Source: a virus. Taken from it: DNA of 53,944 nucleotides. The notes under the pieces were generated by a model. It searched no databases. It saw only the letters and a program-made list of their open reading frames with translations, and was not told where the DNA came from. The translations under genes and the position numbers were made by a program. Where the stretch lies: the IMG/VR virus record IMGVR_UViG_3300005663_000055, positions 1-53,944 of that record. The stretch is one strand, 5' to 3'. This document shows, piece after piece, positions 4,095 through 27,685 of the stretch. Every line of letters begins with the position of its first letter. The stretch's first letter is position 1.

Positions 4095-4635
4095 ACGACT
4101 CCATCTCGTGCTCGAACTTGATCCCCAAACCCACCCCTTCAGCATACTCCCTGATCCACAGACAAACAAGAGGCAGCAACGCCTCCACGTTAATTCCCGG
4201 ATCGTCGCTCGCCGCCACATGTATGCTGCCCACCATGACAGGGTCCTTGCCTTCCGCATCCTTTCGATAGACCCCAATCCTGTACTCCGTGAAGCGCGGC
4301 GTACGCCCCGGGGGAAGTCTCTCGTCGACACTCCTCTCCGCTACCAAGGATTTGAGTCTGAGGTAGCCCAACCCATCATAGGCATACACCACCTTGGACA
4401 ATTCTTCGAGCAGGTGATCCTTGAACAGCGCCATGATAACGCTCGGCGTCGTATCGATCTGCTTCCGGCATGCCTCAACCAGCGCGGAGGCTTCCTTCTC
4501 AATCTTGGACAAGATGTTCTGGACGCCGCTGGTCTTCTCCACCTGCCGGTACCACTGAGCTTCGTACACGACAACCTTCGCCCAATCCAGCGTGGTCATG
4601 TCGCTGGGGTGTGAACTGGCTACTCGTTTACCCAT
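4078..4635 (-). CDS. hypothetical protein, 185 aa
   Basis: Not recognised. Mixed alpha/beta composition with no cysteine cluster or nucleotide-binding motif. ATG at 4635 overlaps the end of the Pif1/RecD-like helicase gene by 8 nt, indicating coupling with it. The C-terminal half (RIGVYRKDAEG, VGSIHVAASDDP) looks like a beta-sheet segment. A partner of the helicase is a guess from position only. Confidence 0.75.
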   Translation of the reverse strand: MGKRVASSHPSDMTTLDWAKVVVYEAQWYRQVEKTSGVQNILSKIEKEASALVEACRKQIDTTPSVIMALFKDHLLEELSKVVYAYDGLGYLRLKSLVAERSVDERLPPGRTPRFTEYRIGVYRKDAEGKDPVMVGSIHVAASDDPGINVEALLPLVCLWIREYAEGVGLGIKFEHEMESYAKQL

Positions 4636-7288
4636 CTGCTAAAGCCTCCTGGTAGAATTCGACTGCCGCCTTGTTGGTCTTGACATAGCTCGGGTCGAGC
4701 CGCTGCGCCAGTGACAGGCCTTCGATATTGCGCGCCCGTGACAGCGCCACGTAGGCGTGCCCAGCCTCGAAGCAGCTTCCGAGGTCGCAGTGCATGTACT
4801 CCAGGGTCATCCCCTGACTGTTGTGATTAACAAACCCGTTACCTATGTAGCTGTGATCCTCCGGGACATGCAGATCAAACACCTCTTTGCGGCAACGCCG
4901 AATCGATACGACTCGGTCTACAAACCACCCGTTTAAGCGCCAGTCCACGACCCGGGAGAACGCAGGGAACTTAGACCTGTCATTGGTAGCCTCGCAGGCG
5001 AACCCAGCCAACGAACCAAGGTGCCTGTGCGTAATCCGAACACCCTGCCGAACACCCTGCCGAACGCTGTTACGGAACTTTTTCGCTGCACCCTGAGGCA
5101 GGTGCAAGCGAACCGACTTACCGTAGGATCGGCCGTAGACCTGCTTCAATTCATCCATTGCTTCCGTTACCCAGGAGGAAGCATCTGGAATACCGCCAAG
5201 TTCAGACTTAGGTAGCCTGAAGACATCCGGCCGCCAACAAGGGGGAAACCGCTTCTTGAGGGCTGCCATTTTCCTGTCGACTCGGAAGCCTATGCCCGCG
5301 TAGAAACGGGTCGCGTCACTCAGATTAGTGATGTTGACCCGCCATGCCCGCTCTGTGAGTTCCGATACTTGGGATAAGATCCCCAAGTTTAGAAGCAGCG
5401 TCTGAACCTCAGACGCAAGAACACGTGAACTTGTAGTCAGGTGTATCCCAGAACTGTTTACTCCGCCGTCGGTGTCATACAATCCACGCAGGAACGATGC
5501 CTGCACAGCAATTGAACCTTGCAAAACAGAAGCCGGAACAGACTTCGACGGTGCCTTGCTGTATCCCAGACCCAGGTGTTCAAGAAAGACACGTACCCCG
5601 CGACAATGAAAGTAAGCTCGTGGGACTTCCCTACCCCTGTTCAACGTCACGGGAACACAAAACACGCTCTCTACAAAAGACTGAAAAAATTTCAGAGGCT
5701 CAACGTCACCCGAAGTGACCTCTACCCGTCCCTCAGCCTCATCCGTGACACAACCGTCACCAACTAAGACACCGAGGAACTCTGCCAACGGGAGTGTCAA
5801 GGAGCTAGGAAGAGAGTACTCGTGATCGTTCCCGTTGTAGTCGGGCTTCCTATCGAAAGCTAGGATAGAATCAGATCCTTCACTCTTGGTTCCGGAACGC
5901 ATCAACAACGCGTCACCCTGCGTGATGTCAGGTGCCAACTTCCAGTCAAACTGACCAGGAGACTGAACAGCGCGGAGCGGATGGCGAGGGCTCACCGTAA
6001 TGGATACCCCGCGCTCTGTAGTAATTTCGTAACAGTCCTCAACCACTCCTCGAAAAACCTGATTGGCACCACGCACACCAGCCTCTGTAAACACTGCGAT
6101 CCCGGGATCACGGCAGGACGCAGACCCAAGGTTGGCACCCGCTATGTCTTGTATTCTTCGCAAACCTGAGCATGTTGCGATGAGTGTGTCCCCGGCCACA
6201 CACTTGTGGATCGTGAGTGCCCAGGCCAGCTTGAGCGGGTACTGCATCATGGCGGCCAGGACGCTGCCGTTGCTGCCCTGGACCTCCCAGGATGCGATCT
6301 CGACCGGGACGACGTGCCCGTTGAGCTTCTCCACGTCGATGATCGGGTACCGGACCTTCTTGACGACGCCGCGCGTGCCGTTCACGTAGCCCATCATCGG
6401 GTTGTTCTTGACGAAGATGACCGGTGCGCCCTCCTTCAGGTAGAGCACGTGCTCGGCGATGCAGTTCTTCTTGAGGTTCGCGTAGTGTTTCTCCAAGCCG
6501 ATGTAGTCGGCATCGAAGGCGTGGGGCTTGCCCGGAAGCTGGGCGAGCTTCCCGCCGTTGATGTCGCGGACCATGTTGTTGGTGGCGAACAGGCGCGTGG
6601 GCTCCTCGGCGAGATCCCGGTTGACGCACTCGTCGAAGAACTCGACCGTATCCTGGCTGACCTGACCGCGCCGGATGGCGAGCAGGTGCATCAGGAAGTC
6701 GTTGTCCTCCTGCCGAAACACCTTGGTCAAGTAGCACAAGTTGAGATCCGCTTCGTGCCACGCGTCCGCGTCGTAAGCGAACACGACGTCCGCCTCCTGG
6801 CCAGGGATCTGGACCGGGGGAAGCTGAAGGAAGTCGCCGCAGAGGATCAGTTGGAGCCCGCCGAAGGGCTTGTCCCGCCTGCGGACCTTCCGGAGCCAGA
6901 AGTCCATCATGTTCATGTAGTCGCCGGTCAGCATCGAGACCTCGTCGATCACCAGCACATGCGCCTCAGTCATCCGCCGGTCGGCGTTGGCCCGGATAAT
7001 CTTGAGCCCGCCTTGGTTCAGCGACTCCTGGATGCTCTTGACGGTGCCCCGGATGGCTGTGCCCAGCCAACTGTGGATCGTGCGGCCCGACACGTTCACG
7101 GCCGCGATGCCCGTCGAGGCCGTGATGGCGACCTCTTTGCCCTCCACCCGGAGGTCGCGCACGATCTCCCGCAGCAACACGCTCTTGCCTGTACCGGCCG
7201 GTCCAGTGATGAGGATGTTGTAGCCGCTCATCGACGCGCGGTAGGCACGCTGCTGGTCATTCCCGAGTTTTATGAGTCCGCTTGGCAT
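4628..7288 (-). CDS. Pif1/RecD-like SF1B DNA helicase interrupted by an intein
   Basis: SF1B helicase of the Pif1/RecD/Dda group. The host protein has Walker A GPAGTGKS (residues 29-36), a TASTGIAA motif, Walker B VIDEVSM (113-119), GDFLQLPP (151-158) and, after intein removal, TIHK-SQGMTL plus AYVALSRAR, which are the late helicase motifs. Such enzymes move 5'-3' on ssDNA in phage replication, repair or recombination. The extein is 425 aa, normal for phage Dda-like proteins. The intein occupies residues 363-823 and sits exactly in the conserved HKSQG motif, a typical intein site. The gene precedes an HhH glycosylase and other small genes in one operon. Confidence 0.93.
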   Translation of the reverse strand: MPSGLIKLGNDQQRAYRASMSGYNILITGPAGTGKSVLLREIVRDLRVEGKEVAITASTGIAAVNVSGRTIHSWLGTAIRGTVKSIQESLNQGGLKIIRANADRRMTEAHVLVIDEVSMLTGDYMNMMDFWLRKVRRRDKPFGGLQLILCGDFLQLPPVQIPGQEADVVFAYDADAWHEADLNLCYLTKVFRQEDNDFLMHLLAIRRGQVSQDTVEFFDECVNRDLAEEPTRLFATNNMVRDINGGKLAQLPGKPHAFDADYIGLEKHYANLKKNCIAEHVLYLKEGAPVIFVKNNPMMGYVNGTRGVVKKVRYPIIDVEKLNGHVVPVEIASWEVQGSNGSVLAAMMQYPLKLAWALTIHKCVAGDTLIATCSGLRRIQDIAGANLGSASCRDPGIAVFTEAGVRGANQVFRGVVEDCYEITTERGVSITVSPRHPLRAVQSPGQFDWKLAPDITQGDALLMRSGTKSEGSDSILAFDRKPDYNGNDHEYSLPSSLTLPLAEFLGVLVGDGCVTDEAEGRVEVTSGDVEPLKFFQSFVESVFCVPVTLNRGREVPRAYFHCRGVRVFLEHLGLGYSKAPSKSVPASVLQGSIAVQASFLRGLYDTDGGVNSSGIHLTTSSRVLASEVQTLLLNLGILSQVSELTERAWRVNITNLSDATRFYAGIGFRVDRKMAALKKRFPPCWRPDVFRLPKSELGGIPDASSWVTEAMDELKQVYGRSYGKSVRLHLPQGAAKKFRNSVRQGVRQGVRITHRHLGSLAGFACEATNDRSKFPAFSRVVDWRLNGWFVDRVVSIRRCRKEVFDLHVPEDHSYIGNGFVNHNSQGMTLEYMHCDLGSCFEAGHAYVALSRARNIEGLSLAQRLDPSYVKTNKAAVEFYQEALADG
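4820..6202 (-). mobile_element. LAGLIDADG intein in the helicase, 461 aa
   Basis: It starts at Cys363 (CVAGDTLIAT), has a block B histidine motif (SITVSPRHPL), two LAGLIDADG helices (LAEFLGVLVGDG near 501-512 and ASFLRGLYDTDGG near 597-609) and ends FVNHN before Ser824 of the extein. All splicing residues (Cys1, His of block B, His-Asn, Ser+1) are visible, so splicing competence and an active homing endonuclease are likely. The DNA is visibly less GC-rich than the flanking helicase sequence. It contains a 12-bp tandem repeat encoding VRQGVRQGVR. Confidence 0.93.
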
Positions 7289-8982: not shown

Positions 8983-9059
8983 TGGCGCACCCGGAGGGAG
9001 TCGAACCCTCAACCCACGGTGCTAGAATCCGCGTGCTCGGCCAGTTGAGCTTCGGGTGC
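8983..9059 (-). tRNA. tRNA-Sup(CTA), predicted amber-reading tRNA
   Basis: Full cloverleaf: acceptor GCACCCG/CGGGTGC, D-arm GCTC/GAGC, T-arm GAGGG-TTCGACT-CCCTC, G73 and encoded CCA. The anticodon stem CGCGG/CCGTG encloses ATTCTAGCA. With the closing A-A opposition the 7-nt loop is TTCTAGC, with U33, anticodon CTA and G37, which reads UAG. The alternative register (anticodon TCT, Arg) would leave two mismatches in the stem. The amino acid carried is unknown. It lies apart from the main array, alone between two small genes. Confidence 0.75.
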
Positions 9060-11484: not shown

Positions 11485-11667
11485 CTAACCGTCTACAAAC
11501 ACCACCCGGTCCACGAGTCGCTGAACAAACGTCGCGTACTCCAGCAGCGCTTTGATGCTTCTGGGCTCGTCGCTTCTTTCAGCGTCGAGCCGGGTATTCC
11601 TAAGATGTTCGGTCCGTGAGGCAACCCTAAGTCGTGCACCCTTGGCTCGGGTTTCGTCTCTGGTCAT
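11485..11667 (-). CDS. hypothetical protein, 60 aa
   Basis: ATG at 11667 overlaps the TGA of the HNH gene (ATGA). Basic N-terminal half, hydrophobic C-terminal helix (LLEYATFVQRLVDRVVFV). Stop codon TAG. It is coupled to the HNH nuclease gene and its role is unknown. Confidence 0.6.
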   Translation of the reverse strand: MTRDETRAKGARLRVASRTEHLRNTRLDAERSDEPRSIKALLEYATFVQRLVDRVVFVDG

Positions 11668-12188
11668 CTCGCCTCCAGCAGTTCCACTGCTCTGGTCTTC
11701 AGATTCTCGATGGTCATCCGCGCCTTGGCGCAATTTACCCACAAACAGCAAAGGACCATGTTGCCCTGAGTGTACCCTGCGTCCGGGTCCTTCCTATCGA
11801 CCGAGATCTGGTCCGGGTGGACGTCGCCCCGAGTGCCCAGACCAATGGTCATCGTCCGGCCTGTGTAAAAGCATTTTCCGTCCTGCTCGGCCAGCATCTT
11901 CCGGAATGCTGGAGTTGTAAGCTCGCAACGTGTCCCGGATTCTTTAGCGCGCTTCTTCACGCGACCTACGATCCCACCGATATTCACAGACTCGGTACTT
12001 CTTCGCTTTCGCTCAGCGTAGCTGAGCTTTTTTCTGCCCTTCCCCGTTCCCTTCCGAGAGTGATTCCGGAATGCTGTTGAGCAGGTCCGGGAGCAGAATC
12101 GACCGTGTCCGCGTTTGTGGTCCGCGAGGCGTGCTGAAAACGAGCCCCCACACTCCTCGCATTCTTTTCCAATTCTACGTCCGCCCAT
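11664..12188 (-). CDS. HNH endonuclease-like protein, 174 aa
   Basis: The N-terminus has zinc-finger-like cysteine pairs (CEECGGSF, FCSRTCSTAF). The C-terminal half FYTGRTMTI, ISVDRKDPDAGYTQGNMVL and NCAKARM matches the HNH pattern of phage homing-type nucleases (VDRxDxxxGYxxxN). I start at ATG 12188, which follows a TTGCCA-17-TACACT promoter by 7 nt without a Shine-Dalgarno. An upstream ATG at 12224 lies in the promoter. The gene begins only 48 nt after the tmRNA 3' end, a typical position for a nuclease parasitising an RNA locus. Confidence 0.75.
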   Translation of the reverse strand: MGGRRIGKECEECGGSFSARLADHKRGHGRFCSRTCSTAFRNHSRKGTGKGRKKLSYAERKRRSTESVNIGGIVGRVKKRAKESGTRCELTTPAFRKMLAEQDGKCFYTGRTMTIGLGTRGDVHPDQISVDRKDPDAGYTQGNMVLCCLWVNCAKARMTIENLKTRAVELLEAR

Positions 12189-12195
12189 GCTGCAC

Positions 12196-12224
12196 AGTGT
12201 AGCTGAGCAGAAGCATATTGGCAA
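12196..12224 (-). promoter_or_regulatory. sigma70-type promoter for the HNH gene
   Basis: TTGCCA (12219-12224), 17-nt spacer, TACACT (12196-12201) on the minus strand. The predicted start falls on or beside the ATG at 12188, so the message may be leaderless. Confidence 0.55.
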
Positions 12225-12235
12225 CGTGTTTTTAT

Positions 12236-12650
12236 TGGTGGAGATGGCGGGAATCGAACCCGCGTGTTGGTCTGCATCAAGCCATGCGTCTACGTGCGTA
12301 GCTACTTTAGAGTTTCCTCAAGCTGTAGCCGCTAGGGGCGCGGGTGTTACCCCGGCGCGTCCACCAGCCTGATACTTGTCAGACAAAGCAACCGGTCTTA
12401 CCGGCGTGCAGCCCTTGACCTTCCTCGCTATCCTGCGCTTGGCGAGGCGGGGTTATCCCGCGACGGTTAGACGCGAGAGAGAACCTTCCCACCCATAGGA
12501 GCAGGAGCGGAAGCCCAAAGAGCCTCCAAGTCCTCAACACTGTTTACAGTGTTGGCACTTGTGTTTTTGATCGATTTTTAACGAGGCCGCTCGATCAACC
12601 TCGGCACGCAACATCGACCTTCTTCAGCCAGTCGAAGCCATTTCATCCCC
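12236..12650 (-). ncRNA. ssrA: tmRNA (trans-translation RNA)
   Basis: The two ends form the tRNA-like domain. The 5' end is GGGGATG followed by the hallmark TGGCTTCGACTGG. The 3' end is CGGG-TTCGATT-CCCG, CATCTCC and encoded ACCA. 415 nt is a normal length. A single open frame begins GCC AAC ACT after a single-stranded A-rich stretch and stops at TAA, which lies in the loop of a 7-bp hairpin TCTCGCG/CGCGGGA, as expected for helix 5. The tag is unusual: 29 residues, beginning ANTVNSVEDLE and ending GGKVLSRV, without the ALAA degron. An 8-bp hairpin CAACACTG/CAGTGTTG lies over the first tag codons. Exact resume codon is inferred. Confidence 0.9.
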
Positions 12651-15547: not shown

Positions 15548-15628
15548 TGGTGGCAAGGGGTGGAATTGAACCACCGACCTTCCTCAGACCGAAGTCATCC
15601 GGCTGCTCTTTCTCTGAGCTACCTTGCC
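15548..15628 (-). tRNA. tRNA-like gene with UUCG hairpin in place of the anticodon arm
   Basis: Perfect acceptor GGCAAGG/CCTTGCC, D-arm GCTC/GAGC, T-arm GGTGG-TTCAATT-CCACC, A73 and CCA. Where the anticodon arm belongs there is GAC-TTCG-GTC flanked by weakly pairing sequence. No clean 7-nt loop can be drawn. Confidence 0.45.
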
Positions 15629-18583: not shown

Positions 18584-21226
18584 CTACGAAAGGGTCCCGA
18601 AAGACCGCTGCCAGTCTGACATTTCCTTCAAGATGGAGTGTGCCCCCAGCCCTTGAACCCATTCCCCGAACCCAATCGGGTTCATCTTCGCGTTGGCCTG
18701 GGTCATCGTCAGAGCCTGGACCATGACAGCCGAGGGGATCTGACGCATCCCGTACCGCAGGTCGATCAGCTTCTTGTTGCGCTCGACGATATTCCATGGA
18801 TCACCCAGCTCGCCCTTCTTTGGCTTGACAATCCTGGTGATGCGCCAATTCTTGTGCATCCCGGCCCTGTTTTTGATCTCGTCGAACGTGACCTTGAATC
18901 CATTCTCCTTGAGGTCCTCGACGAACTGGGCCATCGACTTCGCGCCGCAACCCTCCACGCCGGGGATGCTGTCGGTCGTTTCGCCGACGATGGCTTTCAT
19001 GGCGACCAGTTCTTCGGCGTTGACAGGCTCCTCCAGCAGATTGCCCTTCTTCATCTTGTAGACGCCGACACGGCCGTCGATCAGTTGCTCGAAGTCCGAG
19101 TCATTGGTCGCAATGACGACGCGGCCCTGAACCGACTGGCTGATGAGCGCGATCAGGTCGTCCGCCTCCTGGCCATTCAGGTAGATGCTGCGCACGGCCA
19201 GGAGCCCCAGGTTGGCCCGAAGCTCATCCCGCTGCTGGTACAGCGTCTTGAGATCCTCTTCCGGAATGTCCGAGTGGTCGCGTTGGCGATAACCCGGGAG
19301 GATCTCCCGCCGCCACGCGGCCGACTCGTGATCCCAGACAGTCACGACGTGGACCGGGTTGAACATCCGGATCAGTTTCCGCAGTTCCCGCAGGAAGCTG
19401 AAGATCAGACCCGTGCGCTTGCCGCCCGGCCCCCGCATATCCAGGATGCTCTTCACGTAGAAATCCCGCCACGTGACGTAATTCGAGTCGACCAGCAGGT
19501 AGACAACCGGCGCTTCGGGCGGTGGTGACGGTGCTGGGGGTGTGTCCATCCGCTGCTCCACGACATTTCCTATATTACTTATATGATTTTCTACAGATTT
19601 TTCCACGTTAATCTCGTCAGATTCTTCATCATTCTCTGTAGCGGGCGAATGGGCCGCTCCCCGCGCGGGTCGCGCGGGTGCTTTGACCGCAGCTTCCTGG
19701 CGCATGGGACGGTCAGCCTCGTCGGTCTGCTCCTCGGCGTCCGGGTCCCGGAAATCCTTCCAGGGCACCCAGTCCTGATAGTTCCAGACCTGGATATCGA
19801 GTTCCGGCCAGCACTGTTCGACGTACAGCCGGTCGATCAGGCCGCCCGCATACGAGCGCTGGTGGAGGAACTCCATCATGTACGAGCCCAGCGCTTCCCG
19901 GGTCACGCCACCAATGTGCTTAAAGCGCCGGTCCGGCAACTCGGCGACGTAGAGCGCCGCCATTCCGGCAGACTGGTCTGTTTCTGGCGGGCTTGGGTGC
20001 ACAACTGCGCCCACTTCTTCCCCACCTTTGCGGAAAACCTCCAGATGAAGGTCGTAAACATCCCCAGCAAACGCCAGCAAGGTCTGCTCCTCGGCCTCCA
20101 TGCCGGGACCCAACAGGTGTGCGAGGGACTCTGGGTCGATAGGTACGTGAGACCGCAGAAAAACCCTGCCGTTTGACAGCAAGCATGGGGAGGCCGGGTG
20201 CGAGGTTCCCCACAAAACCACGGGAGTTTCCACAGAAAACGCTCGCAGGTGCTCCGCACGGATGACCGACACGAAGGCCTTGCCCGTATAACCACACGAG
20301 GACTGCCACACCGCACCAGCTACGTAGTTTTCACCAGAACTTTCAGAATCTTTCGACAAAGGTACGACAGACATGTCACCCATTGCGGCCTTTATCAGAA
20401 CCACTGTGGCTGGATCTACCTTCAAAATGCTCTCGCGGACCGAATCCTCCAGCCGCACACAGCGGTTCTCCTGGCAGATCGCGCGGGCGTACCCCGGGTG
20501 GTCCGGACTTCGAGAAACCTCGCGAGTTTCTTCGACGTAATAGCTGCGATCTCCCTTGAGGATCTCGATAGTTCCAGGCTTTTTGAAGCTGACCTGGATC
20601 GTCCCGTCCCGATCAGCAAGTTTCTGGAGCACAGACAGCGGGACCTCGACGTCCCAGCACCCACCCGTCGACATGTTGACCGACAAATTGCAACAGAGCG
20701 TGATCTGGCGGCTCGGGTCGTGGGCGTAGACCGTGATGATACTGCTGAAGTAGCGCATGCGCGTCGACACGGACAGCCCCAGGACATCGAAGACGGCCAG
20801 GAAGTACTCCAGGTTCTCGATGTCCTTGTCCGTGACCGTATGATCCATGAGATCCGGGAACGGATATGGAGACCTGTACTCGATCTCGGCCGTCAACGTC
20901 ACTTGATCGTCTCCCTCTCCCAGTCTTGCCCCGGGCTCGAAGAAGTGCAGCACCGACTCTCCGACGCGGGAGAGCACTGCCACGCCCAGGTCCTCGTAGG
21001 CCACCGGGTACGAACGCACCCCGACAACCTCGTCCAGCGGCACCGCCTCCAGAAGCCGGAGTGCCATTGTCCGCTTGCTGCTTCCGTTCGTCTCGGCGTA
21101 GACGAGAACAGCCGGTTCATTCTGGACGATGGGTGTGAACCAGATGTTGTCCGGCGTCTGCCCTAGTGCGCTACGCAGTGCCGTCAGCGCGGCCTGGAGG
21201 CTGCCGGTGTCGAAGCGAATCCGCAT
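18584..21226 (-). CDS. sliding-clamp-like / FEN (5'-3' exonuclease) fusion protein, 880 aa
   Basis: ATG at 21226 (GAGG 7 nt upstream). Residues about 1-380 resemble a DnaN-type sliding clamp: MRIRFDTGSLQAAL start, repeated clamp-like sheets and an EVPLSVLQKL / PDHPGYARA block as at the end of clamp domain 2. A less familiar region follows, then an Asn/Glu-rich linker. Residues about 574-880 are a clear phage FEN/5' nuclease: YLLVDSNYV, HVVTVWDHESAAWRREILPGY, GQEADDLIALI, IATNDSDFEQLI and SIPGVEGCGAKS carry the acidic metal ligands and H3TH helix. FENs remove Okazaki primers, and a clamp tether would be logical but unusual. An internal ATG at 19549 (residue 560) has GGAG 6 nt upstream and could give a stand-alone 321-aa FEN. 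The clamp call is from pattern resemblance. Confidence 0.8.
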   Translation of the reverse strand: MRIRFDTGSLQAALTALRSALGQTPDNIWFTPIVQNEPAVLVYAETNGSSKRTMALRLLEAVPLDEVVGVRSYPVAYEDLGVAVLSRVGESVLHFFEPGARLGEGDDQVTLTAEIEYRSPYPFPDLMDHTVTDKDIENLEYFLAVFDVLGLSVSTRMRYFSSIITVYAHDPSRQITLCCNLSVNMSTGGCWDVEVPLSVLQKLADRDGTIQVSFKKPGTIEILKGDRSYYVEETREVSRSPDHPGYARAICQENRCVRLEDSVRESILKVDPATVVLIKAAMGDMSVVPLSKDSESSGENYVAGAVWQSSCGYTGKAFVSVIRAEHLRAFSVETPVVLWGTSHPASPCLLSNGRVFLRSHVPIDPESLAHLLGPGMEAEEQTLLAFAGDVYDLHLEVFRKGGEEVGAVVHPSPPETDQSAGMAALYVAELPDRRFKHIGGVTREALGSYMMEFLHQRSYAGGLIDRLYVEQCWPELDIQVWNYQDWVPWKDFRDPDAEEQTDEADRPMRQEAAVKAPARPARGAAHSPATENDEESDEINVEKSVENHISNIGNVVEQRMDTPPAPSPPPEAPVVYLLVDSNYVTWRDFYVKSILDMRGPGGKRTGLIFSFLRELRKLIRMFNPVHVVTVWDHESAAWRREILPGYRQRDHSDIPEEDLKTLYQQRDELRANLGLLAVRSIYLNGQEADDLIALISQSVQGRVVIATNDSDFEQLIDGRVGVYKMKKGNLLEEPVNAEELVAMKAIVGETTDSIPGVEGCGAKSMAQFVEDLKENGFKVTFDEIKNRAGMHKNWRITRIVKPKKGELGDPWNIVERNKKLIDLRYGMRQIPSAVMVQALTMTQANAKMNPIGFGEWVQGLGAHSILKEMSDWQRSFGTLS

Positions 21227-21228
21227 CG

Positions 21229-22422
21229 TCAACCCTCATCCGGGATCTCAACATCGTCCGGCTCAGGCTCAACGAAGACTGACGGCTTGGCGTACTTCGC
21301 AGCAATGATGTCCATCAGGTAGGCACGGATCTTCGGATTCCTGCGGATGACCTCCCGCCACGTGGCCATCTGGAACGCGACCTCTTCGCCCTCCACAAGC
21401 TCGTGCTTCTGAGCGAGTTCTCCTGTCGGGATCACGTACTTCCAGCCGCCCCGCGTCGTGATGGATTCCTCGCACCCGTACAGCAGGCAGTAGTCCGGGT
21501 CGATCCCTTCCAGTGCCCAGCCGCTGTCGTTGTTGATCGCCGTCACAGCCTGGGTGTACGGCCGGAACAGCTTACTCTTCGTCGCGGTTGTACGGATCAG
21601 GAGATTGCCGGTGGACTCGTCCGTCGGGTACCGGCCCATCCGGCGCGTGTTGAGCCGGACGCTGCTGATGAACTTCGGACCGCCGCCGCCCGAGGTCTCC
21701 TGGGTCTTGTGGTGGTAGCCGCCGATCTGCTCAATGATCTGCGAGACGATCACGAACGCGGCCCGCGCCTTGGCGATGGGCGTCGAAATGTCCCGGAATC
21801 CTTCCCGGATTAGGCGCGGCTTCAGAGTCATCCCCTGCTTCTCGCCTTCGAGCGCCTGATTGGTGGTGACGTTGTCCAAGCTATCGAGCCCGACGAAGAC
21901 CGGCCTGCCCACCCATTCCGGCTTGCCTGCGAGACTGTTCAGGATGTCCCTGATGTACAGAAACACATCCTGGACCGACATGGCAGGGAGGATACGGTCA
22001 CCCTGTTTCTTGCTAGTCCGCTCAGGTTTTGTGTACGACTTCTGGAGCAGGATGACCTTCTCCGGATCGCCACCCATACGAGCAAAACGCTCCGGGTCGA
22101 AGCTGACCTCGGGATCGATCAGGACCGCGACGCCGTCGTTACACGTGCACCAGATCAGACCCGACTGGACGATGGTGCTCTTGCCCGTCGAGAAGTTTCC
22201 GTAGACCTGCGTGACGCGTCCGCAGGGGAAACCCCCCTGCATCATCGCGTCGAGGTTGGGGCAGCCCGTGGGAATCCGTATCTTGACGATGCTGTCGAGA
22301 AGAGGGCTGTTTCCCAGGATGGCTTCGCCACCCTTGTGAGAGTCCGTAAAGTCATCGGCCAACTCCTGGAGGAGTTGGCCGTGACTCTTGGACTTCTCTT
22401 TGGCTTTCTTTTTCTTGGACAT
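21229..22422 (-). CDS. recA: RecA/UvsX-type recombinase, 397 aa
   Basis: RecA-family ATPase: Walker A GNFSTGKST near residue 76, Walker B VFVGLDSLDNV, a loop region SQIIEQIGG and SSVRLNTRRMGR. The N-terminus is a lysine-rich extension (MSKKKKAKEKSKSHG), the C-terminus acidic as in bacterial RecA. It forms filaments on ssDNA for strand exchange and recombination-dependent replication. The gene lies directly after the SSB-like gene (TAGGGATG junction) and before the clamp-FEN gene. Confidence 0.92.
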   Translation of the reverse strand: MSKKKKAKEKSKSHGQLLQELADDFTDSHKGGEAILGNSPLLDSIVKIRIPTGCPNLDAMMQGGFPCGRVTQVYGNFSTGKSTIVQSGLIWCTCNDGVAVLIDPEVSFDPERFARMGGDPEKVILLQKSYTKPERTSKKQGDRILPAMSVQDVFLYIRDILNSLAGKPEWVGRPVFVGLDSLDNVTTNQALEGEKQGMTLKPRLIREGFRDISTPIAKARAAFVIVSQIIEQIGGYHHKTQETSGGGGPKFISSVRLNTRRMGRYPTDESTGNLLIRTTATKSKLFRPYTQAVTAINNDSGWALEGIDPDYCLLYGCEESITTRGGWKYVIPTGELAQKHELVEGEEVAFQMATWREVIRRNPKIRAYLMDIIAAKYAKPSVFVEPEPDDVEIPDEG

Positions 22423-24649: not shown

Positions 24650-27600
24650 TCACCCGGCTATTTGGAGACTTTTCTGCCATTTTCCAGAGATTTTTATCTT
24701 TTTTCCCTCGGCGGCGAGGGCTTCCCAATCACCCTGGTATCGGGCGTTACCAATACAGTCACCAAACCGGTCCACGACCTCAACCAGGGTGTCCTTCTCA
24801 CCCTCCAGGGAGATGTCCCCAGTCTCAAAGTTGAACACGCAGTCGCACTGGTCTCCCCAGTTCGGCCCAAACTGGAAGTCGACCACCATCGGCACGATCA
24901 TCCAGGGGAACCGATGGGGGATCTGGTCGACCAAGTGCGTCCGGGTCGCCCGCATCAGGAAAGCGGCCTCCTCCGGGATCAGATCGAATACGATACTGTC
25001 GTGGACGTAGGCCCACATCTTGGATTCAAGCTGCGCGTCCTGCATGGACTGATGGATGAAGCCCGTGGCCCAGATGATGATATCGGACGCGCCGCCCTGG
25101 ATCGGTGTATTGACTGCCCGGCGGTGGCGGTCACCCTCGTCGTAGTACATCGACAGATCGCGCCAGCGTCCTGTCGGCGTCCACACGCCCTGGCGCTGGC
25201 GACCGGCCTCGGCGTCCCAGTACGGTGTGTCTGCCTCGTAGTGCCGCTGATTGATCCACTCAGCCGCCTGAGGCATCATCGCGAACAGAGCCGCCTGGAT
25301 CGTCTCCGCCTTCTCCTCCGAAATCTTTAGCTGTTTGGCGATGGACGCCGGGCCGCGTCCATAGAAGGTACCAAACACGACCGCCTTGGCCTGGAAACGC
25401 TCGTCATCCGTAACGTCCTCGACGGCCTTCTGGAATCCCATGGCCGCAACCTCGCGGTGAACGTCCCGACTGGGATCGGAGAGGACCGCGATGAAGTTCC
25501 TGTCGCCGCTGACCGCCGCGATCACGCGCAGTTCGGCCTGACCCACGTCGAAGTTGGCCAAGAGGCCCCTCTTGCCGAAGCGGGAAAGGTACATCTTCCG
25601 AATCTTCTTCGGGACCTGCTGGATGTTGGGGCCGCTACTGGTCGTTCTGCCTGTCCGCGCCGTGGTTAGGTTGAACGAAGCCGACTGGCACAGCACCTCG
25701 TAGAGTTCCGCCTCGTAGCAGCGGCAGTCGTTCAGCGCGCTGCGCGTGTCCCACCACTCCGGGCACTCCACCACGGGACAGTTTTCGTAGGCTTTCTTCA
25801 AGTATGTGCTGTAGATCTTCGAGGCCTTGCGGTAGTCCTTGATCATCTCCAAGATGTCGGCCCGATCACCCTCGGTCTCGCCGAACTCCGCGAGCTTGTC
25901 CGACATCAGTTCGATGCTCGCCTCGTTTGTCGACGGCATCCCGTTGGGAAACATGTCGGTTTTAATCTTTCCCAGTGCTGAGACGAGAGGCATGCGCAGG
26001 ATATCGAACAACAGTTCCGCAAGGTGGTACGTGCTGTTGAAATTGAGTTCCAGTTCCCCCATCTGGTACGGCTTAGTGCGCGCTTTCTCGGTTTTCTTCT
26101 TGGCCCGCTCGGCGTCTGCCTTTGCTATTCGACGCCGAGTCCACTCCCCACGGCACGGGCTCTCCTTGAAACGGGCCTTGATCCCGGCCATCTCTTTCTC
26201 GGCGACGTCAGCCAGACGATCACGCATCTCCCCGTCGATGCGTCCACCGTTCTGCTCCATCTCAATGAAGGCAGCGTACGGATGGATGCCAAAGAGGTGG
26301 AAAGGCTCCCACTGTTTCGCGCGAACGAGCTTATCCGCGAGGATCGGAATCAACTGGAGAACGACATCCACGTCTTCGGCCGCGTAGTACAGCAGCTTGT
26401 TGAGCGGAATGTTCGTGTAGTACTGCTCATCTTTCGGCAGGTGGCTCAGAAACTCTTGCAGTTCGTCCGCGTAGCCAGCCTCATCGGAAAGGTTTCGGAC
26501 CGTGATCTCCTTCAGTCCATTCTCCGTGGATGTGCCCAGATGAAGCGCATAGCTGGCAAGCTGGGTATCGAACGCGATCTTCCACTTCTTCGCGCCCAGT
26601 TTGAACCGTGACCAGTGCAGGTCGAACTTGATATTCGCTCCGACAACGGGGACGGTGGCCAGAAGCTCGCAGTACTTCTCTGCGACCTTGCGCTGCTGGT
26701 CCAGCGTCATCGTCGCCTCCGGATGGAACATGAAAATCACCCGGGCGAAGTGCGGCTTGTGCGACAAGTTGATCGTGATGACTCGCCCACCGGGAAGAAA
26801 TGGCTTGATCGCGCCCTTTTTCTCATTGCCCTCCGGACCGACGGTCTCCAAGTCCAGAGCGAACCACTGGATCAGGCCGCCCCTGTACAGTTCGATGACC
26901 TCGTTCATGTACGCGATAGCTTCATCGCAGTCGAGAATGGCCTTGTAGTCCTTATCCGGCTTCTGCTCGACCACACCGTCGATCCATTTGCGCGCCTGTC
27001 GGAACGCGTCCGCCAACTTGTGGCGTTCGTTGATCTTGCCCTCGTACTGGAACGAGGACGGATGCAAGATCGGCATCACCTTTAGTTGCGGCACGGCCTC
27101 CATCTGGAAGCCTTTCGCTTCGAGCGGCTTGACGAAGTTCTCCAGGAAGACCGGATCGTCCATACGGTCCGGGCTGACTCCGTCCTCGCCCATCGGGAAA
27201 TCGATCCCGTGGTCGAAACAGAAGTCTTCCAGACGGACCGCAGCCCAGACATTCTTCGGCGGCGTCGTATGGCGGTAGGTGCCGTGCAGTTTCTTCATCT
27301 CGCTGAAGCCCAGCACCGTACCTGTGGCATACTTACCGGCTGTGACGACCACGTCGGCCTGGGCATGGAGAACCGCGCGCCACAGGTTCCGGGAGCAGCA
27401 CTTTATCTGCTCAACCGAGGGCTTGTTCTTCACACTCCCGCCGTAGCAGAAGACTGTATTCGTGTAGGCCACGTCCCGATCCGGGTCGAAGCCCGCGTCA
27501 ACAAGCTGCTCGCGGAGGATACCTCCAGCCTGACCAACAAAACCACGACCCTGCTCGTCCTCATCCGGGCCGGGGGCCTCGCCGATGATCAGCAGCTTGG

Positions 27601-27685
27601 GCTTGGTCTCTGTATACGTCGGCCAGACCACCTGCCTCGATGGCTTTCGCCGGTCACACCGCCAGCAATCCGCCATAAAGCGCAT
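24650..27685 (-). CDS. uracil-DNA-glycosylase-like / family A DNA polymerase fusion, 1011 aa
   Basis: Residues 1-260 match family 4 uracil-DNA glycosylases: WRCDRRKP cysteines, LLIIGEAPGPDEDEQGRGF, FVGQAGGILREQL and a late ILHPSSF. Residues about 285-480 form a DnaQ-like 3'-5' exonuclease (FALDLETVG, VGANIKFDLHWSR, YAAEDVDVVL). Residues about 560-1011 are a PolA domain with motif A NFDVGQAELRVIAA, motif B (QAKAVVFGTFYGRGPASIA) and motif C WAYVHDSIVFD. This is the replicative polymerase and the N-terminal UDG-like domain recalls SPO1-type phage polymerases. Whether the UDG part is catalytic or only binds uracil cannot be told. The start overlaps the primase stop (TGATG). Confidence 0.95.
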   Translation of the reverse strand: MRFMADCWRCDRRKPSRQVVWPTYTETKPKLLIIGEAPGPDEDEQGRGFVGQAGGILREQLVDAGFDPDRDVAYTNTVFCYGGSVKNKPSVEQIKCCSRNLWRAVLHAQADVVVTAGKYATGTVLGFSEMKKLHGTYRHTTPPKNVWAAVRLEDFCFDHGIDFPMGEDGVSPDRMDDPVFLENFVKPLEAKGFQMEAVPQLKVMPILHPSSFQYEGKINERHKLADAFRQARKWIDGVVEQKPDKDYKAILDCDEAIAYMNEVIELYRGGLIQWFALDLETVGPEGNEKKGAIKPFLPGGRVITINLSHKPHFARVIFMFHPEATMTLDQQRKVAEKYCELLATVPVVGANIKFDLHWSRFKLGAKKWKIAFDTQLASYALHLGTSTENGLKEITVRNLSDEAGYADELQEFLSHLPKDEQYYTNIPLNKLLYYAAEDVDVVLQLIPILADKLVRAKQWEPFHLFGIHPYAAFIEMEQNGGRIDGEMRDRLADVAEKEMAGIKARFKESPCRGEWTRRRIAKADAERAKKKTEKARTKPYQMGELELNFNSTYHLAELLFDILRMPLVSALGKIKTDMFPNGMPSTNEASIELMSDKLAEFGETEGDRADILEMIKDYRKASKIYSTYLKKAYENCPVVECPEWWDTRSALNDCRCYEAELYEVLCQSASFNLTTARTGRTTSSGPNIQQVPKKIRKMYLSRFGKRGLLANFDVGQAELRVIAAVSGDRNFIAVLSDPSRDVHREVAAMGFQKAVEDVTDDERFQAKAVVFGTFYGRGPASIAKQLKISEEKAETIQAALFAMMPQAAEWINQRHYEADTPYWDAEAGRQRQGVWTPTGRWRDLSMYYDEGDRHRRAVNTPIQGGASDIIIWATGFIHQSMQDAQLESKMWAYVHDSIVFDLIPEEAAFLMRATRTHLVDQIPHRFPWMIVPMVVDFQFGPNWGDQCDCVFNFETGDISLEGEKDTLVEVVDRFGDCIGNARYQGDWEALAAEGKKIKISGKWQKSLQIAG

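Follow-up and report, generated by a model that had tools for sequence, protein, structure and literature searches.

The window, that is, the whole stretch of DNA analysed here (53,944 nucleotides), is a linear 53.9-kb IMG/VR virus record with 59% G+C and with baseplate genes. Its minus strand contains a one-piece tmRNA gene with the following features.

12236–12650, minus strand: one-piece tmRNA gene (ssrA), 415 nt, CCA encoded (Rfam RF00023)
12644–12650, minus strand: 5' strand of the acceptor stem, GGGGATG, pairing with CATCTCC at the 3' end
12236–12246, minus strand: 3' strand of the acceptor stem with ACCA (CATCTCCACCA), including the G3-U70 alanine identity pair (wobble)
12567–12607, minus strand: pseudoknot 1 (PK1), GCCGAGG...GGCCTCG and TTGATCGA (12598–12591) with TCGATCAA (12574–12567), from the Rfam alignment
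12527–12561, minus strand: hairpin that encloses the resume codon together with A(-4), with its core palindrome at 12535–12554, from folding
12554–12556, minus strand: resume codon GCC with A at -4, from the frame rule (PMC2481249) and homologues
12467–12556, minus strand: tag reading frame ANTVNSVEDLEALWASAPAPMGGKVLSRV and stop, from the frame rule, homologues and frame translation
12473–12484, minus strand: GTTCTCTCTCGC, translated as VLSR; its 12 bases match the planctomycete (Q)FSLA codons but are shifted by one base relative to the reading frame
12456–12478, minus strand: helix H5 with the stop codon UAA (12469–12467) in its loop, from folding and the Rfam alignment
11664–12224, minus strand: HNH/endonuclease VII-like ORF (phrog_1035, 61 bits), directly downstream of the tmRNA, a neighbour only

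The Rfam tmRNA model RF00023 matches 12650..12236 along its entire length (model positions 1–374 of 374) with 120.1 bits, the gathering score being 47, and an E-value of 2e-46. The Rfam scan yields no other full tmRNA in the contig. The gene combines this full-length covariance match with an alanine-type acceptor stem and CCA, PK1 located 5' of the resume codon, an A at -4, and an open frame whose stop lies in H5 (UCUCGCG-UCUAACCGU-CGCGGGA, -10.8 kcal/mol, z -2.73). It is a genuine tmRNA. The preliminary description had placed a tmRNA with all landmarks at this locus; both the gene and its acceptor stem, PK1, resume context and H5 are borne out, and the strand, unstated there, is minus. ARAGORN reports 26 tRNAs in the window, the tmRNA not being among them; since the program misses this gene, the class of such genes may be under-counted.

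Many intact tRNAs lie in the region around the tmRNA. A tRNA with the CUA anticodon (8983–9059, minus strand), called tRNA-Pyl by ARAGORN, is a candidate amber suppressor, and TAG is the stop codon in 10 of the 40 larger ORFs checked. ARAGORN assigns an anticodon of just two bases (ga) to the tRNA gene at 15548–15628 (minus strand), which also scores above the Rfam tRNA cut-off. As for protein-coding genes, the Pif1-like helicase (4628–7288, minus strand) carries an intein that contains a LAGLIDADG domain, the family A DNA polymerase (24650–27685, minus strand) is fused within one ORF to an N-terminal uracil-DNA-glycosylase domain, and an 882-aa ORF (18584–21232, minus strand) has a C-terminal 5'-3' exonuclease domain and about 570 N-terminal residues with no Pfam match. 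There is no SmpB gene within the 53.9-kb fragment, and SmpB is expected to come from the host. The scan for a promoter upstream of the tmRNA gave nothing convincing.

The phage polymerase and its counterparts in SPO1-like phages share about 25% identity. The 18–42 kb part of the window had no near-identical DNA among 50,697 phage records, the RecA-like protein scan revealed no close phage relatives, and the matches listed in the polymerase-profile scan have 22–32% identity. By their polymerases, the tmRNA-bearing phages that the pattern scans picked up are either very distant from this phage or unrelated to it. The PK1 signature is shared with planctomycete tmRNAs, and the 5' part of the window tmRNA is 75–79% identical to planctomycete and neighbouring tmRNAs. 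The host of this uncultured phage is probably a planctomycete or a member of a neighbouring phylum, judging by one gene.

The tag frame is set by a highly conserved A four bases 5' of the resume codon (PMC2481249). In the window, ACAAGU precedes the resume codon GCC, with A at -4, and the resume point of a homologous tmRNA (L129, tag ADIELLAA) is at the same place. Read from GCC, 29 sense codons precede the UAA in the H5 loop. The other two frames close after 'PTL' (3 codons) and 'QHCKQC' (6 codons) and were rejected. Since the A(-4) rule, the homologue and the single frame open to the H5 stop agree, the tag is ANTVNSVEDLEALWASAPAPMGGKVLSRV, preceded by the alanine with which the tmRNA is charged. 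The preliminary description had read the same 29 residues from a single open frame, ending in KVLSRV rather than ALAA, and had named a resume codon in another frame as one observation that would overturn this; with the remaining frames that short, its reading holds. Degron tags end in (L/V/M)AA, while this one ends in SRV with the FSLA codons out of frame, and hence, as judged by its sequence, the window tmRNA is outside the degron-tag class.

For comparison, 54 distinct callable phage tags were collected from pattern scans of viral contigs and phage records and from covariance-model checks; the matches of one PK1 pattern scan were mostly by chance. Tags ending in AA are the majority (47/54). 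Four others have a final A preceded by a different residue, and three have non-alanine ends, that is, the window (RV), L175 (WN) and L282 (GV); the calls were made by rule and by eye, which entails some count error, and a preference for AA ends biases the AA count upward. The bacterial comparison covered 80 loci that share the PK1 signature and come mainly from Planctomycetota. Their 79 readable tags all end in AA, as called by a script favouring AA ends where several frames fitted, and the idea that the host tag likewise lacks AA was rejected on this count. Non-AA ends are thus seen in 7 of 54 phage tags versus 0 of 79 bacterial ones (Fisher p 0.0014, for related sequences selected by motif). 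The length of 29 residues was rejected as a mark of novelty, since 12 of the 54 phage tags run to 22–36 residues, most of them still ending in AA. The range across tmRNAs is 8 to 35 residues (PMC8012679). Two Omnitrophota tmRNAs (L368 and L426) have 25-residue tags ending in PMALAA, whereas the remaining bacterial tags compared are far shorter. A 250-nt phage tmRNA (L136, that is, L006 4503–4753, minus strand) with a 35-codon open frame not ending in AA was set aside, as its tag end is uncallable, and the tmRNA of Myxococcus phage Mx1, found via L175, was rejected as a second example, its tag ending in MMAAA.

Phage tmRNAs as such are well known: one survey lists 402 phages (PMC9004378), and mycobacteriophages and phage G were earlier known carriers (PMC4131195). 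A charged last tag residue has been reported for Carsonella only (PMC4131195). The MrMagoo-type mycobacteriophage records already show unusual tag ends. In the literature covered, with subscription papers mostly outside its scope, we came across no phage tmRNA described as having lost its degron.

The codons of the missing degron are still visible. In six planctomycete tmRNAs, QFSLAA is encoded by CAG TTC TCT CTC GCA GCY TAR, and the window has AAG GTT CTC TCT CGC GTC TAA. The 12 bases GTTCTCTCTCGC are identical to those of planctomycete AKPQFSLAA tmRNAs and occupy the same place before the stop, offset by one base. The longest such run in 2754 other stop-ending 24-mers of the window is 10, and this empirical rank is a guide, the comparison having been made after seeing the sequence. 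The next frame reads GRFSLAS and has no stop in H5. Compared with AKPQFSLAA, the TTC is displaced by 61 bases (20 codons and a further base), and the stretch before the stop is one base shorter. We infer that a net gain of about 61 nt (1 mod 3) was followed by deletion of a single base ahead of the stop; together these two indels would account for the KVLSRV end with the stop in frame. In a full alignment the insert could not be placed cleanly. The retention of degron codons read one base out of frame is new here.

The reading that we favour, with middling confidence, is a planctomycete-type tmRNA captured by the phage that has kept ribosome release and lost the ssrA degron. The insertion in the tag frame would have shifted the reading of the FSLAA codons by one base, and the one-base loss would have returned the stop to frame, in the H5 loop. 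The parts for alanine charging, SmpB binding, entry to stalled ribosomes, resumption and H5 termination would all be retained. The phage RNA would be used by the host SmpB and alanyl-tRNA synthetase and would free ribosomes stalled on broken messages during infection, the products receiving a 30-residue tail with no ssrA degron and being left to slower or other proteolysis. Since the acceptor stem, PK1, the resume context and H5 are intact, ribosome release is likely kept; the AA-less tag, the out-of-frame 12-mer and the in-frame stop also support this reading. We infer expression, tagging in vivo and escape of the products from ClpXP, which lie beyond the parts visible in the sequence.

Phage growth in E. 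coli depends on ribosome release and not on polypeptide destruction (PMC2481249). With the E. coli DD-tag tmRNA phage plating is 0.1–0.5, and with a minimal tag 0.9 (PMC2862035). Results with heterologous tmRNAs suggested that tagging does contribute to phage growth in a secondary way (PMC2862035), which is a counterpoint to the loss of the degron with release kept, as are the single contig, the lack of a relative for assessing tag conservation, and a strong hairpin at the resume codon. Of the two uses proposed in the preliminary description, rescue without a ClpXP degron is the best-supported reading and now has a nucleotide-level cause, the degron codons being out of frame, although the hairpin leaves efficient tagging uncertain and Lon or ClpAP might degrade the products; the addition of a functional tail is unsupported.

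This hairpin, overlooked earlier, encloses both A(-4) and the resume codon (AAGU G CC AACACUGU AAAC AGUGUUG AGGACUU, -19.0 kcal/mol, z -4.31). Its strength ranks first among the 54 phage tmRNAs (53 others compared) and exceeds that of 78 bacterial tmRNAs (mean -8.2, strongest -13.7 kcal/mol), and none of 2000 synonymous recodings with the phage codon usage is as stable. A resume-codon hairpin beyond those of the other phage and bacterial tmRNAs compared is the second new observation. The palindrome has no second copy in the window; it either arrived with the insertion or was selected. As a tentative possibility, the degron may have been dropped by the compensated frameshift with release kept, and a selected hairpin may gate the resume codon during infection.

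A somewhat unlikely alternative is that the RNA is a poor template, its resume codon being closed by the hairpin, and that it works mainly via its tRNA-like domain, competing with the host tmRNA for SmpB, or that the tmRNA is gated and opens under some infection condition. The stability of the hairpin is in line with this, a helix around the resume codon having been proposed as the block in an E. coli mutant (PMC2481249); moreover, mycobacteriophage DS6A has a tmRNA consisting of the tRNA-like domain only, and such a molecule inhibits tmRNA (PMC4131195). However, a pure decoy would have no need to preserve an open frame of this length that terminates in the H5 loop, helices can be opened by ribosomes and S1, and folding of the isolated RNA leaves aside protein and tertiary contacts.

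It is rather unlikely that the tag continues to target products for degradation, with a host protease such as Lon or ClpAP recognising its hydrophobic stretch or C-terminal valine. While ssrA-tagged proteins are taken by ClpXP, ClpAP and Lon (PMC8012679), the last residue is hydrophobic, as in nearly all tags (PMC4131195), and the tag contains LEALWASAPAP, all readable relatives with this PK1 use AA, and the tag end is explained as an out-of-frame remnant rather than a designed signal. That the gene is a decaying host-derived copy with a degrading tag frame, of no use to the phage, is highly doubtful: the lost degron, the insertion, the strong resume hairpin and the homing-endonuclease-like neighbour would fit, but the acceptor stem, PK1, H5 and the in-frame stop are intact across 415 nt, a compensating indel would have restored the stop, and the region has many intact tRNAs. 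An assembly or sequencing error hiding an in-frame FSLA-type degron is very improbable, as two indel errors would have to fall within the 90 bases of the tag frame, and the contig has ORFs that run unbroken for up to 1228 aa, even though the degron codons stand in the next frame and two compensating indels would restore the stop automatically.

The value of trans-translation to phages, freeing ribosomes versus destroying proteins, has so far been argued from engineered E. coli tmRNAs. If release is indeed kept and the degron lost, a natural phage tmRNA that has retained its stop would be evolutionary evidence that release is what matters to the phage, and the window tmRNA supplies a sequence on which the question can be tested. 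The variant is represented by a single contig, with no close relative found in the above scans.

The closest named systems are planctomycete tmRNAs with the tag AKPQFSLAA (for example L403, L415 and L436), which share the PK1 signature, the similar 5' part and GTTCTCTCTCGC before the stop, but have a 9-aa tag ending in LAA, no insertion and weaker local structure at the resume codon. Long-tag phage tmRNAs (L176, ANDEFDVPFDLIEANGFGGYGARALAA; Wildcat-type, AVDTDVDFAMWEAELASDLVAA) are likewise phage-encoded and one-piece, with tags of 22–36 aa, but most keep the terminal AA, unlike the window. The L175 phage tmRNA (1501–1909, plus strand; tag AKNDEFDVPFDLVVAAGFGGGPSARAWN) resembles the window in having a long tag without AA. 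It ends in ..ARAWN, whereas the similar L176 (minus strand) ends in ..ARALAA, and this pair is an independent partial parallel, a second natural loss of the AA end. However, L175 is from an unrelated uncultured phage, its end was lost by a different route, and an out-of-frame degron is not shown there. Engineered E. coli tmRNA with the ANDENYALDD or minimal tag has the same expected behaviour, release with no ClpXP degron, and supports phage growth (PMC2862035), but it is man-made, of normal length and structure, and experimentally tested. Finally, mycobacteriophage DS6A also has a phage tmRNA unable to give the usual degron, in its case by having no mRNA-like part (PMC4131195).
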